Source of the DNA: Sulfuricaulis sp.
Lineage (GTDB): Bacteria > Pseudomonadota > Gammaproteobacteria > Acidiferrobacterales > Sulfurifustaceae
Assembly (NCBI GenBank): GCA_024654125.1
Contig: JANLIC010000065.1
Coordinates: forward strand, 1 to 38,011
DNA length: 38,011 bases
Reading direction: 5' to 3'
Part shown: positions 33,277 through 38,011 of the stretch, one piece after another
Position numbering within the stretch: the first letter of the stretch is position 1
How the letters are laid out: the number at the start of each line of letters is the position of its first letter
Notes under the pieces: model-generated
What the model saw: the letters and a program-made list of their open reading frames with translations, nothing else
Told to the model about the DNA's origin: nothing
Database searches by the model: none
Position numbers and translations under genes: made by a program

Positions 33277-34119
33277 ATGAAATCCAAATGCATATTGATC
33301 ACCGGCTGCTCGTCCGGCATCGGCCGTTGTCTCGCGCACGGCCTGAAAAAGCGCGGCTACCGGGTGTTCGCCACGGCACGACGTGAAAAGGATGTCACGG
33401 CACTGTCAGAAGCCGGTCTTGAGAGCTTTCAGCTGGACCTGGACTCGCCCGAATCCGTGCATAACGCCGTCAAGGCCGTGCTTGAACAGACACAGGGCCG
33501 TCTTTACGCCCTGATCAACAACGGCGCCTACGGGCAACCCGGGGCCGTCGAAGATCTGTCACGCGATGTGTTGCGGGCGCAATTCGAGACAAATCTTCTC
33601 GGCACCCAGGAGCTGACCAATCGGGTGATTCCGGCCATGCGCGCCCAAGGAGAAGGCCGCATCATCAACATGAGTTCGATGCTCGGCATTGTGTGCTTCG
33701 CCTACCGTGGTGCCTACAACGCCACCAAGTTCGCGCTCGAAGCCCTGTCCGACACCATGCGTCTCGAACTGCGGGATACCAATATTTTTATTTCAGTTAT
33801 TGAACCCGGCCCGATTGAAAGCCGTTTCCGCGCCAACGCCTACGTAGCCTTCAAGCACCACATTGACCGCGAGCACAGTGCACATCGTGAACATTACGCG
33901 CGTCTGGAAAATAGACTCGAAGGCTCGAAGCCCATGCCCTTTACGCTTCCACCCGAGGCGGTACTGAAAAAAGTGATCCGTGCCCTGGAATCGCGCCGGC
34001 CAAAAGCACGCTATGGCGTTACTTTTCCCACACATCTCTTTGCCGTGCTGCGGCGGATTCTGCCGGTGCGCATGCTTGACTGGGTACTTGCCGTGGTGAG
34101 TAATGGAGGACAAAGATAA
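33277..34119 (+). CDS. Short-chain dehydrogenase/reductase
   Basis: ILITGCSSGIGRCLAHGL; NNGAYG; YRGAYNATKFALEAL. Confidence 0.95.
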   Translation: MKSKCILITGCSSGIGRCLAHGLKKRGYRVFATARREKDVTALSEAGLESFQLDLDSPESVHNAVKAVLEQTQGRLYALINNGAYGQPGAVEDLSRDVLRAQFETNLLGTQELTNRVIPAMRAQGEGRIINMSSMLGIVCFAYRGAYNATKFALEALSDTMRLELRDTNIFISVIEPGPIESRFRANAYVAFKHHIDREHSAHREHYARLENRLEGSKPMPFTLPPEAVLKKVIRALESRRPKARYGVTFPTHLFAVLRRILPVRMLDWVLAVVSNGGQR

Positions 34120-34185
34120 CGCAAAGTTCACCGGACGAGGGACCGCGCCAGCGGGACCGAGTTCCGGTGGAACGACGAGTTATGC
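34114..34185 (-). other. attC-1, integron recombination site (terminal site of array)
   Basis: Minus strand: GCATAAC TCGTC GTTCCACCGGAAC ... GTCCGGTGAAC TTTGC GTTATCT. Arms pair as GTTC[C]ACCGG[A]AC with GTCCGGTGAAC; extra bases only on the R'' arm; the XRE stop codon lies within R''. Confidence 0.7.
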
Positions 34186-34440
34186 CGCCGCTTTGTCGGG
34201 CAGTTGCCAGCCGGGGAAAACCAACACCCCGGGATGGCACTTGAGTGCCCGGGCGAGAACCTTGGCCCGTTCGACGCCAAGACGGACTCGGTCATTCTCA
34301 ATCGCCGAAATAGTGGCTTGAGGAATCCCGGTAAGACGGGCCAACTGGCTTTGGCTCAACTCCTGAAGCTCACGAAGAATGCGCACGGACTCACCAACCG
34401 AAACCGTGACACGCTTTTTGGCAGGACGATACTCTTTCAT
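34180..34440 (-). CDS. XRE-family HTH antitoxin
   Basis: SVGESVRILRELQELSQSQLARLTGIPQATISAIENDRVRLGVERAKVLARAL; immediately follows the toxin gene. Confidence 0.9.
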   Translation of the reverse strand: MKEYRPAKKRVTVSVGESVRILRELQELSQSQLARLTGIPQATISAIENDRVRLGVERAKVLARALKCHPGVLVFPGWQLPDKAAA

Positions 34441-34722
34441 TTATGGCCTCCTATAGTCATGCGCGGTTAACGATGCCACCTGGAAAAGAAACTTTTCGGC
34501 AACCACACGGTAGATGACGCGCCACTGAAGTCCGAGCCGGCAAGATCGGTAACCTCGCCACTCCCCTGACAGGGCCTCGTCACGAAATCCCCTGATCAGA
34601 CGGAGCCCGGGTGGGCCGGATATCGCCGCAATGTCCTTCCACTTTTCATAGCGCTTGAGAATATCCTTCGGGGCCGCCGAAACTTGTTTATCCACCCGGC
34701 GGTGCTCTTCGATGCGCCACAT
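34441..34722 (-). CDS. RelE/HigB-type toxin
   Basis: MWRIEEHRRVDKQVSAAPKDILKRYEKWKDIA...LSGEWRGYRSCRLGLQWRVIYRVVAEKFLFQVASLTAHDYRR. Confidence 0.85.
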   Translation of the reverse strand: MWRIEEHRRVDKQVSAAPKDILKRYEKWKDIAAISGPPGLRLIRGFRDEALSGEWRGYRSCRLGLQWRVIYRVVAEKFLFQVASLTAHDYRRP

Positions 34723-34754
34723 ATCATATTATGGCTATACTCAATATGGTATGT
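34719..34754 (-). promoter_or_regulatory. TA operator/promoter: 12-bp imperfect inverted repeat overlapping promoter and start codon
   Basis: Minus strand ACATACCATATT-N12-AATATGATATGT (11/12 paired); -35 TTGACA (34752-34757), 18-bp spacer, -10 CATAAT (34728-34733); toxin ATG at 34722. Confidence 0.65.
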
Positions 34755-34773
34755 CAATAAACTTCCCATTGCG

Positions 34774-34831
34774 GCACAACTTTTGAACTCAGCCGCTGAC
34801 GAAGCCGGTCGGCTGGAGTGAGCAGTTAGAG
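34774..34831 (-). other. attC-2, integron recombination site (58 bp)
   Basis: Minus strand: CTCTAAC TGCTCA CTCCAGCCG ACCGGCTTCGTCAG CGGCTGAG TTCAAAA GTTGTGC. CTC[C]AGCCG pairs with CGGCTGAG with one extra base on the R'' arm; toxin stop TAA lies within R''. Confidence 0.75.
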
Positions 34832-35095
34832 GGCGCCACGATATACATTTTTTCGGTGCCCCACCTTGACGATATAGATCACAAGCTTCTCATCTTCTAC
34901 CGCATATACGACTCGATAAACTCCCTGGCGAATACGGTACCGGTCGTGCCCGGTAAGCTTCTTGGAACTGTTTGGTCTTGGGTCTGTGGCTAAATCTTGA
35001 ATGCGGCGAATGATCTGTTGGCGGATTTTCTTTTGCGGGATGGCCTCGATCTCCTTTACCGCGGCAGGCTTGATGAAGACCTTATATTTTCCCAC
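34826..35095 (-). CDS. RelE/ParE-family toxin
   Basis: MGKYKVFIKPAAVKEIEAIPQKKIRQQIIRRIQDLATDPRPNSSKKLTGHDRYRIRQGVYRVVYAVEDEKLVIYIVKVGHRKNVYR. Confidence 0.95.
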   Translation of the reverse strand: MGKYKVFIKPAAVKEIEAIPQKKIRQQIIRRIQDLATDPRPNSSKKLTGHDRYRIRQGVYRVVYAVEDEKLVIYIVKVGHRKNVYRGAL

Positions 35096-35315
35096 GCCGT
35101 TTCAGATCCTTCACGACGTCCTCAAAGGGCAGATTTGGCTCTCGTGAGCGTTGCTTGAATGCCGCCAGGTCTTCCGCATCATCGGCCAGGCTGAGTTGCA
35201 CAGCTTCATTGACCAAGTCGGATAAAGAGCGATCCATCTCCGCAGCCTTTAACCGAAGGGCGCGGTGAAGCTCAGAATCGAAATAAACGGTTGCTCGTTT
35301 GGGATTAGCATTCAT
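35082..35315 (-). CDS. Ribbon-helix-helix antitoxin
   Basis: KRATVYFDSELHRALRLKAAEMDRSLSDLVNEAVQLSLADDAEDLAAFKQR; overlaps the toxin start by 14 nt. Confidence 0.92.
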   Translation of the reverse strand: MNANPKRATVYFDSELHRALRLKAAEMDRSLSDLVNEAVQLSLADDAEDLAAFKQRSREPNLPFEDVVKDLKRRGKI

Positions 35316-35319
35316 GCAC

Positions 35320-35351
35320 GCTAGTCTAGCGTCTTAACGCTATAACGTCAA
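35320..35351 (-). promoter_or_regulatory. TA promoter with two overlapping perfect inverted repeats
   Basis: Minus strand: -35 TTGACG (35346-35351), 17-bp spacer, -10 TAGACT (35323-35328); TAGCGT-TAAG-ACGCTA (35327-35342) and GCTAG-A-CTAGC (35320-35330). Confidence 0.65.
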
Positions 35352-35369
35352 GCCGCTAACCGTTAAGCC

Positions 35370-35449
35370 CTCTTACGTCGTTTTAACCGGCGCGGGCAAG
35401 AGGAAACAGTGCGCCGCATCACCGCGTCCGGTTGAAAACACAGTTAGGC
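35370..35449 (-). other. attC-3, integron recombination site
   Basis: Minus strand: GCCTAAC TGT GTTTTCAACCGGACGCGG ... CCGCGCCGGTTAAAAC GAC GTAAGAG. Arm GTTTT[C]AACCGG[A]CGCGG pairs with CCGCGCCGGTTAAAAC; R' box degenerate (GTAAGAG). Confidence 0.75.
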
Positions 35450-35466
35450 TCCTTTCCCATGGTAAT

Positions 35467-36033
35467 TTAATTCTTATTCATTAAAGCCATTAACGCTTCT
35501 TCGGCAGTTTTATTATTATTTTCTTTTGCTAGATCTAGGGCACTTTTCCCTTGCGCAGTTTTGTCATCTAGTTTGGCACCAAGCGACACCAATGTTTCGA
35601 TAATTCCTTTGTTAGTGTTGTATTGAGCCGCGATCAGTAAGGCAGTTTCATCATTATTTACCTTCTTGTTTATGTCGGCCCCCAAATTCACTAACTCTCT
35701 AATTATTTCTGGATTGCGGCTATAGCCAGCCGCCCCCGTGATAGGAGTGCCAGAAAATATAGAATCAGACTCATTCACCTGGGCACCTCGTTCAACTAAT
35801 GCTCTTATAATCCTTGGGTCGGAAGCTCCTATCGCAGCCCACATTAAAACGCTGCCGTTCTTATTACCGGCCTTTAGGGCTTTATCAGGTACCTGGGATA
35901 CTGACTCCAAATTAGCTAATTGCCAGAACTCCCGTGTACTGTATTTCTTGTCGGGATTCATTACTTTCAATACCCCCACAAACGCAACAACCACGATAAG
36001 TGCAATGATGTATTTTGGATTAACTGACGTCAT
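35467..36033 (-). CDS. Membrane-anchored ankyrin-repeat protein
   Basis: N-terminal TM (YIIALIVVVAFVGVLKVM), repeats ALVERGAQVN.., ELVNLGADINKKVNNDETALLIAAQ, TLVSLGAKLDDKTAQGKSALDLA; SD GGAG upstream. Confidence 0.9.
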   Translation of the reverse strand: MTSVNPKYIIALIVVVAFVGVLKVMNPDKKYSTREFWQLANLESVSQVPDKALKAGNKNGSVLMWAAIGASDPRIIRALVERGAQVNESDSIFSGTPITGAAGYSRNPEIIRELVNLGADINKKVNNDETALLIAAQYNTNKGIIETLVSLGAKLDDKTAQGKSALDLAKENNNKTAEEALMALMNKN

Positions 36034-36098
36034 AGTTTCTCCGACTCTCTGCTTTGTAATAAAGGCTATTGATTATCGCTCGATGATGCCTAACGAGT

Positions 36099-37404
36099 CT
36101 GTAGAAAAACCCCTTTGCAGAAGTATGGCAGACTCGATGTGATTATTGTTTGATCGGTTGGTCGTCCCGGATGTCGGGGTTTTTGTTTTTGCTTCTTTCG
36201 GCTTCGCCTCGGTTGCCGCTTTCCTTCTTGATCCTTCATCCACTCGCTGCCAGCATCGGCCCGTAGCGCTGGATTTTGCCGATATTATGCACCAGGCAGT
36301 AGAGCAGCCACTGGGCATTGACCTTGGTTTTGCCTCGGAGCGTGAAGCGATCGAGCCCCTTGGCGTGGCGGACGTTGGCCTCCGAGGCGTAACCGGCGTC
36401 GGCGGTGAGGCGGGCCTTGGATAAGACATCGCGGCTCTCCCCCGCCGCCTTCAGATTCTCGCGCAACCCTTCGACCGTGGGCACGAGCAGCCCGTGTTCC
36501 TGACCCTCACCAAAGGCGCCCGCGTGCACGATGACTTGGTGTTTGCCATCCACCGCCGCCACCGCCGTGTAGCCCTGGATCACGCCGTGGCTCGTTTTCA
36601 TCTTGGCGCTTTGGGGGTCGGTGATGTTGCTTTGGCGGATCGTGCCTTTCGGCCCGCGGTTCTCGTTGCCCGTGGCGAGGAATTCCTTGATCTTGCGCAC
36701 CTTCGCGCGCAGGCGTTCGATTGACTCCTCGGCGCGCTCGCGCGGGGGCGCCGCGGTCTCGGCGGCATCGCGCGCCCGGTGGGCCGCGAGCATCGTGCGA
36801 ACGGTCTGCTCGAGCTTGCGTTGCTTCTTCTTGAGATCGGCGCGGGTACCGCTCCACTCCTTGGCCGCATTCGAGGGCAGTTTCAGCCCATCGATCGCAA
36901 AGAGCTCCTTACCCAGCAATCCGAGTTGATCGCAGTAGGTGAGCACCTCGCGAAACAGCGCCACGATCTGCTCGTGGGAGCCGGCCACAAAATCGGCAAT
37001 CGTGGTGAAGTCGGGTTGGGTATCGGCCGAGAGTGCCATCATTACCACGTTCTCGCGGCAGAGGCCTTCGATGCGCCGCGAGGAGACCACGCCCCGCGAG
37101 TAGGCGAACAAGATGATCTTCAGCAGGAGGCGCGGATCGTAGGCCGGGGCGCCGCCCTCGTCGTTGCGGTACCGGCCATCGAAGACCGAGAGATCGAGCT
37201 CGTGGTCGATGACGTAACCGAGGGTGTATTCAAAGGTACCGGGAAGAATCTGTTCGGAATAACGGACGGGAAGGAGCTTGTGCTGATCGTACGAGTAGTC
37301 CTTGTATCGCGCCATTCGACCCATCTCCTGTGGCTAAGCGGTGTTGAGAAAAAACACGGCGAGCGAACGGCGTGATTATAAATGTTTGGAGGGTTTTTCT
37401 ACAG
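36099..37404 (-). mobile_element. IS1182-family-like insertion sequence with 14-bp perfect terminal inverted repeats
   Basis: CTGTAGAAAAACCC at 36099-36112 and GGGTTTTTCTACAG at 37391-37404, bracketing one transposase ORF. Confidence 0.88.
36236..37324 (-). CDS. IS1182-family-like transposase
   Basis: LPVRYSEQILPGTFEYTLGYVIDHELDLSVFDGRYRNDEGGAPAYDPRLLLKIILFAYSRGVVSSRRIEG...LTADAGYASEAN...WLLYCLVHNIGKI. Confidence 0.92.
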   Translation of the reverse strand: MGRMARYKDYSYDQHKLLPVRYSEQILPGTFEYTLGYVIDHELDLSVFDGRYRNDEGGAPAYDPRLLLKIILFAYSRGVVSSRRIEGLCRENVVMMALSADTQPDFTTIADFVAGSHEQIVALFREVLTYCDQLGLLGKELFAIDGLKLPSNAAKEWSGTRADLKKKQRKLEQTVRTMLAAHRARDAAETAAPPRERAEESIERLRAKVRKIKEFLATGNENRGPKGTIRQSNITDPQSAKMKTSHGVIQGYTAVAAVDGKHQVIVHAGAFGEGQEHGLLVPTVEGLRENLKAAGESRDVLSKARLTADAGYASEANVRHAKGLDRFTLRGKTKVNAQWLLYCLVHNIGKIQRYGPMLAASG

Positions 37405-37476
37405 TTTCAACGAAAAGCTTGAGCGGCGCGCTGCTTTTGCGCGTCCGCCTCGAAGCGCTGGTTGGACCTCGGCTGA

Positions 37477-38011
37477 CTAACCACAAGCGTCCTTGTTGCC
37501 GAAGTGTTCTGGTTTATTCGACCATCCGACAACGCCGCTTTTACTTTTCACTTTAACCCACCACACGGCCTTTGGCGGACGTTTTCGCTGTCCCCAACAG
37601 GTTTTCTCTTCTACGCACTGGTCCCAACCCCCAAGACCGTGAACAAAGAAGAACGCTTCCTCCTCATACATTTGTCCCTGAAACCACACTCTGAAAAACC
37701 CTTCACCCAAGTTGGTGTAAACCCACACCAGGTCCTTCGGGTTATAGGTTCTGTTCGATACCTTGCTGGCATGCGGGCGAAGCACTTCTATAAGACCTGG
37801 TTCGATGGTTGCTACGAATCCGGTCAGACCGTCGACTTTTTCGCCGGTGCGCACCACCCCGATGGGTTTTGATTGTTCGTCAGGGGTTGTGAGGAGCGTT
37901 GTCGGCTTCTTCACTGTCCATTCGCGATATGTGCAGCATTCAAAAGGGCAGGCCCCTTCATCGACATATTTGGTAGGACGCTCCGCAGCAATTCCTACAC
38001 AAGTGATAAAA
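37477..38011 (-). CDS. Secreted Cys-rich/SH3-like hypothetical protein, integron-cassette-borne (5' end beyond window)
   Basis: Frame stays open past the GTG start in the ORF track: ...FITCVGIAAERPTKYVDEGACPFECCTYREWTVKKPTTLLTTPDEQSKPIGVVRTGEKVDGLTGFV...; stop directly precedes the attC-4 R'' box. Confidence 0.7.
   Translation of the reverse strand, partial: FITCVGIAAERPTKYVDEGACPFECCTYREWTVKKPTTLLTTPDEQSKPIGVVRTGEKVDGLTGFVATIEPGLIEVLRPHASKVSNRTYNPKDLVWVYTNLGEGFFRVWFQGQMYEEEAFFFVHGLGGWDQCVEEKTCWGQRKRPPKAVWWVKVKSKSGVVGWSNKPEHFGNKDACG

Follow-up and report, generated by a model that had tools for sequence, protein, structure and literature searches.

An IS1182-family insertion sequence inside an attC site of a probable sedentary integron in Sulfuricaulis, and a proposed attC-associated IS1182 clade

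ISKpn4 and ISPst6 are insertion sequences (ISs) of the IS1111-attC group (Tetu and Holmes 2008; Post and Hall 2009, both as cited in PMC11187229); IS1111 elements have a DEDD transposase, are guided by a seekRNA and carry subterminal repeats (PMC11187229). Group IIC-attC introns have the target consensus TTGT/T (PMC7923331), and IS1272 of the IS1182 family replaces its target palindrome with no duplication (PMC5678879). Here we describe an IS1182-family element that lies within an integron attC site of Sulfuricaulis sp. The window, that is, the whole stretch of DNA analysed, is the entire contig C106 (JANLIC010000065.1; 38,011 bases) of a metagenome-assembled genome (MAG) of 2.43 Mb in 346 contigs with 87.7% completeness. 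We consider it very probable that the array which begins at 34114 forms the distal portion of a sedentary integron, and that the fourth of its attC sites was entered by a member of an IS1182 clade that targets attC. No paper on attC targeting by IS1182-type elements was found in the searchable literature as judged by titles and abstracts, a scope that leaves many subscription papers and ISfinder outside.

A first-pass annotation, made from the sequence alone, had read four minus-strand attC sites in this region. They were examined with two covariance models. R1 was trained on 9 short uninterrupted attC sites from relatives and contained no window sequence; R2 was R1 enlarged and refined on 61 matches, with attC-2 not among its training rows. 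Since RNAalifold gave no consensus on attC sites of mixed lengths, the structure was first assigned manually for a single length class, from which it was extended. The E-values below are approximate, as the calibration was short.

34114–34185, minus strand: attC-1, R'' GCATAAC, R' GTTATCT; R1 E 1.4e-6, R2 E 1.5e-9; distal end of the array
34774–34831, minus strand: attC-2, R'' CTCTAAC, R' GTTGTGC; missed by R1, R2 E 3.5e-4
35370–35449, minus strand: attC-3, R'' GCCTAAC, degenerate R' GTAAGAG; R1 E 0.0014, R2 E 1.5e-11
37405–37467, minus strand: attC-4 body, R'' GTCCAAC to GTT; R1 E 3.1e-19, R2 E 5.3e-13; the IS breaks the site after its GTT core at 37409–37411
36088–36094, minus strand: displaced half of the attC-4 R' box, read from the sequence, GTTAGGC including the second copy of GTT (AAC at 36092–36094)

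R1 matched three of the sites and R2 all four, on the strand and in the order that the annotation had given; the lack of covariance hits that it had named as fatal to its reading was thus found at none of the four positions. Beyond attC-1, attC-3 and attC-4, R1 had no match at E≤1 in the window and three other stretches of the genome (71 kb). R2 had no further position in the window at E<0.05, and its sole extra match (E 0.087) was attC-1 on the opposite strand. Homologues were also found by BLAST: attC-4 is 90% identical to attC sites of genomes G003 and G014, attC-3 has an 80-nt homologue in G006 (E 1e-18), attC-1 has a match in G009 (E 7e-20) and a homologue adjoining intI in G002, and attC-2 has a weak match (E 5e-8). 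Very similar attC sites stand in arrays beside a full-length intI within the same genus. Of the GTTRRRY-like R' boxes claimed in the annotation, that of attC-3 is degenerate and the apparent GTTGAAA of attC-4 is GTT joined to the tip of an IS. Neither the IS nor the decayed box had been part of the earlier reading. As the R' box of attC-3 (GTAAGAG, 35370–35376) is without a GTT core, the ankyrin-repeat and ParE-type toxin-antitoxin (TA) cassettes may be frozen together.

A sceptical view would take the hairpins for ordinary terminators or chance structures near words that resemble RYYYAAC and GTTRRRY. Such box pairs are indeed common on their own, and an ad hoc script for a box plus a hairpin returned dozens of them in the window; that search was not specific and was dropped for the covariance models. 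We give the sceptical view practically no credence, as it is refuted by covariance E-values down to 3e-19, by the exact order and strand and by the homologues in arrays that contain intI. It is the covariance and homology evidence that carries the identification of attC.

The IS and its transposase gene are placed as follows.

36095–37408, minus strand: IS1182-family insertion sequence of 1,314 bp with ends GANN-CTGTAGAAAAACCC, within the R' box of attC-4 and with GTT duplicated at its flanks
36236–37324, minus strand: transposase open reading frame (ORF) of 362 aa; NF033551 196 bits, below the cut-off of 270

Exact 14-bp inverted repeats, CTGTAGAAAAACCC, are present at both ends of the element, where 0 are expected by chance; terminal repeats of this kind agree with the IS1182 family. 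The minus-strand sequence of the site is CTTTTCGTT/GAAACTGTAG...CTACAGACTC/GTTAGGC, with slashes at the junctions. When the IS and one GTT were removed in silico, an attC was restored whose R'' box is GTCCAAC and whose R' box is GTTAGGC; the R' boxes of the uninterrupted homologues are GTTGGGC in G003 and GTTAGGC in G014. Compared with a 508-aa relative, the transposase in the window has an in-frame internal deletion, and the VEPVFGN segment, invariant in an alignment of intact relatives, is missing. The low NF033551 score of this copy is due to the deletion, as the intact relative L018 scored 282 bits, above the cut-off, and so qualifies as an IS1182-family transposase. By its sequence the copy in the window is an internally deleted remnant, and no second copy was found in the window genome. 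The clade frequently has shortened copies whose ends are intact, and these resemble non-autonomous derivatives (L067 1345–2715, L069, L070 and the window at 36095–37408).

Related IS copies were then surveyed in 369 genomes of the class and in a GTDB contig set, with transposase similarity as the only means of selection. The loci come from Gammaproteobacteria, Betaproteobacteria, Gemmatimonadota and Desulfobacterota; they are phylogenetically related and lie on MAG contigs. Both IS ends were located at 89 loci. GTT stood at both flanks in 71 of 79 distinct insertions, while a single insertion (L150) had TTT on both; because of this TTT/TTT pair, the flanking triplet is assigned to the target. 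The logo of the insertion point is C-GTT-R-G. An attC detected by the model ended exactly at the IS in 51 of 85 copies, always with its R' side touching and with 0 facing the wrong way, and R1, built from nine uninterrupted sites, also detected many of the abutting sites. An earlier energy-based null that used random GTT positions was weak, partly as real attC sites may sit in it, and was replaced by shuffles of each flank. Against these, a stem of attC type with an RYYYAAC box was supported at p≤0.05 in 54 of 79 insertions, where about 4 are expected. With both tests combined, attC is the site of about three quarters of the testable insertions. On the transposase tree, about 4 changes account for the direction of the transposase with respect to attC, as opposed to 24 with shuffled labels, so that orientation follows the phylogeny of the IS. 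One of the four changes rests on L088, which has a very long branch and probably a wrong reading frame. A transposase search of a plasmid collection returned three records only, all marine; the copy from Pseudoalteromonas piscicida lies behind a hairpin of attC type and has GTT at either flank. In line with attC targeting, intI is commoner in genomes with the IS (13 of 17) than in the others (126 of 352; Fisher p 0.0013, indicative only because related genomes are not independent). At two loci (L059 1326–1338 and the right end of L144) tandem IS copies are joined by a single GTT, which points to a circle junction or to more than one insertion at that core.

Such an association could also arise by survivorship, if the IS entered any CGTTRG and the copies in attC persisted because cassette junctions are intergenic and harmless. 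The CGTTRG core is conserved also where no attC is detected, and alternative targets exist, with 121 CGTTRG outside long ORFs in about 103 kb of IS flanks. Nevertheless, attC sites should make up a small minority of intergenic CGTTRG (an expectation, not a genome-wide count), and about three quarters of the testable copies are at attC. Nor would survival alone predict an orientation relative to the attC body that is fixed within a clade. Moreover, control loci of the IS1182 family with other inverted repeats and no more than about 30% identity to the clade, equally free to persist in attC, never do so: no attC at E≤1 was found in 74 kb of their flanks. Survivorship as the whole explanation is therefore improbable in our view.

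Alternatively, the integron integrase itself may have placed the element, if a circle of the IS with abutted ends (CTC-GTT-GAG) recombined at G/TT in the manner of a cassette. The junction does fall at the triplet cut by IntI, and the tandem junctions with a single GTT would fit a circle. On the other hand, the TTT/TTT pair at L150 is incompatible with a product of IntI cleavage at G/TT, identical ends occur at sites that are not attC, and the element itself carries no attC. Moreover, 4 of the 17 IS-bearing genomes are without a full intI at the threshold used. We regard placement by the integrase as very improbable.

Targeting by the IS is what we favor instead, and we propose the name IS1182-attC for what appears, from the sequences of the surveyed copies, to be a specialised IS1182 clade that inserts mostly into attC. 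The transposase of these elements would itself recognise the attC end, either as double-stranded sequence or as a folded strand, while insertion takes place in the R' box between GTT, the core triplet of the integrase, and RRRY. GTT is duplicated (3 bp), and each lineage of the IS inserts in one fixed direction. As R'', L'', L' and GTT all stay on the same side and the IS tip provides GANN where RRRY had been, little of the attC body is lost, and recombination at attC may survive the insertion. The IS then lies in the leader of the next cassette, where it is probably harmless to the host. A bolder version holds that an old IS1182 clade, present in at least three phyla, reads the folded attC strand (structure, not sequence alone), enters at the GTT core in a fixed direction and is a parasite of integrons that leaves attC undestroyed, so that it can travel with the cassette behind it. 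We offer this version tentatively and lean somewhat against it.

The array itself is bordered on its lower side by a chromosomal gene and runs past the assembly edge at 38011. As the annotation had stated, every cassette gene from 34114 to the contig end is on the minus strand; they comprise two TA pairs, an ankyrin-repeat protein and one cut-off protein.

33277–34119, plus strand: short-chain dehydrogenase (SDR) gene (Pfam PF00106), the conserved chromosomal anchor at the distal array end; its stop codon overlaps the R' box of attC-1
34180–34440, minus strand: cassette 1, helix-turn-helix (Xre/HipB-like) antitoxin (PF01381)
34441–34722, minus strand: cassette 1, RelE/YafQ-like toxin (TIGR02385, above cut-off)
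34826–35095, minus strand: cassette 2, ParE/RelE toxin (PF05016, E 1e-12)
35082–35315, minus strand: cassette 2, ribbon-helix-helix antitoxin (PF20605)
35467–36033, minus strand: cassette 3, ankyrin-repeat protein (PF12796), with a possible N-terminal membrane or signal segment
37477–38010, minus strand: cassette 4, open ORF cut by the contig end, function unassigned, no Pfam match

The SDR gene has an orthologue in 8 of 9 genomes of the genus. The SDR-attC junction is common to G006 and G008 and absent from G003, G004, G005 and G007, and in G003 SDR and a DUF1015 gene are immediate neighbours in a tail-to-tail arrangement. In the window genome, the C-terminal 67 residues of an integron integrase open contig C278, where lexA and a convergent DUF1015 gene come next. 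This C-terminal piece at the contig edge is the only piece of an integron-type integrase in the genome. The lexA gene encodes the SOS repressor, which commonly controls integrases. An intI followed by lexA in the same direction occurs in three genomes of the genus: the window genome G000 (L013 1–911), G004 (L037 8606–10260) and G007 (L040 7883–9540). Because SDR and DUF1015 are adjacent in G003, a single integron most likely extends across C106 and C278 in the order SDR, array, (attI), intI, lexA, DUF1015, and the gap between the contigs would most simply be put down to repeats. The array would then most likely be the distal end of a sedentary chromosomal integron. The annotation's view of a cassette array read toward lower coordinates is borne out by the strand of the attC sites, the intI fragment on C278 and the SDR-DUF1015 synteny. 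The fragment and the synteny in G003 likewise favor its expectation of attI and intI past 38011, with the linkage drawn from synteny, and the adjacency in G003 makes attC-1 beside SDR the most likely distal end. The Pc promoter would likewise be placed past the contig end. In G002 the distal TA cassette and its attC are 90% identical to those in the window and lie about 2.8 kb from its intI at a different chromosomal place; that intI (L041 11017–11400) ends after about 115 residues, and the integron of G002 is probably without a working integrase.

It is also conceivable that the array has no attached integrase, i.e. that it is a cluster of attC sites lacking integron integrases (CALIN), and that the piece of intI on C278 comes from a different array of the genome. 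Further attC sites on contigs C164, C260, C5, C254 and C134 indicate several clusters, and the N-terminal part of intI is absent from the assembly. However, the SDR-DUF1015 adjacency in G003 and the gene order on C278 predict exactly a C106-C278 connection, and the gene directions agree. A CALIN is thus unlikely, though a serious alternative. Within the genome, L167 (G000:C164 30000–41354) holds another attC cluster, with four attC sites at C164 38831–41181, a DUF3644 cassette and an end at the contig edge; it may be a neighbour of C106.

Several observations weigh against a sedentary integron entered by an attC-targeting IS. The MAG is incomplete (87.7%), and its assembly leaves C106 and C278 as two unjoined contigs. 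Four of the 61 training rows of R2 are IS-interrupted sites. The copy in the window cannot act alone, because its transposase is deleted. About one quarter of the testable insertions have no attC by these tests; some of them, such as L084 and L086, look like missed attC sites, and others, such as L076, L110 and L117, do not. As all insertions without a detected attC keep GTT, and most keep CGTT, recognition of a short sequence may suffice. The exact empty site was not found for the two IS copies tried among relatives and plasmid records. Regarding short-sequence recognition, the large excess of attC and the fixed direction favor something more.

If targeted attC sites stay active, silent cassettes could gain a movable leader or promoter in the form of such an IS, which the integrase could shuffle. 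For annotation, the end GANNCTGTAGAAAAAC beside GTT would mark an attC, including sites with a split R' box that automated tools may misread. With IS1182-attC, a third unrelated type of mobile element would have converged on the attC sites of integrons; it would be the first of DDE type found in the searchable literature.

The integron resembles the sedentary chromosomal integrons of Gammaproteobacteria in its cassettes of small genes that end in attC, its TA modules, its single reading direction and an intI of the TIGR02249 family in the same genus; it differs in that intI adjoins lexA in three genomes of the genus and is otherwise ordinary. As in the IS1111-attC group, the elements are ISs that precisely target one end of attC, but IS1182-attC has a DDE-type IS1182 transposase in place of an IS110/IS1111-type DEDD enzyme (it matched only IS1182 and DDE_Tnp_1_6 models), ends in terminal repeats and duplicates the GTT triplet. 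Group IIC-attC introns share attC with its GTT-containing core as the target and use the attC hairpin. These introns are RNA-based retroelements that insert at R'' on the bottom strand, whereas IS1182-attC is a DNA transposon at R'; the window had no Rfam match and the element has no reverse transcriptase. With IS1272 and other palindrome-targeting members of the IS1182 family, IS1182-attC shares the transposase family and targets with stem-loop potential. In contrast to the palindrome replacement of IS1272, the attC body is retained and GTT is duplicated, and the inverted repeats of the two are unlike.

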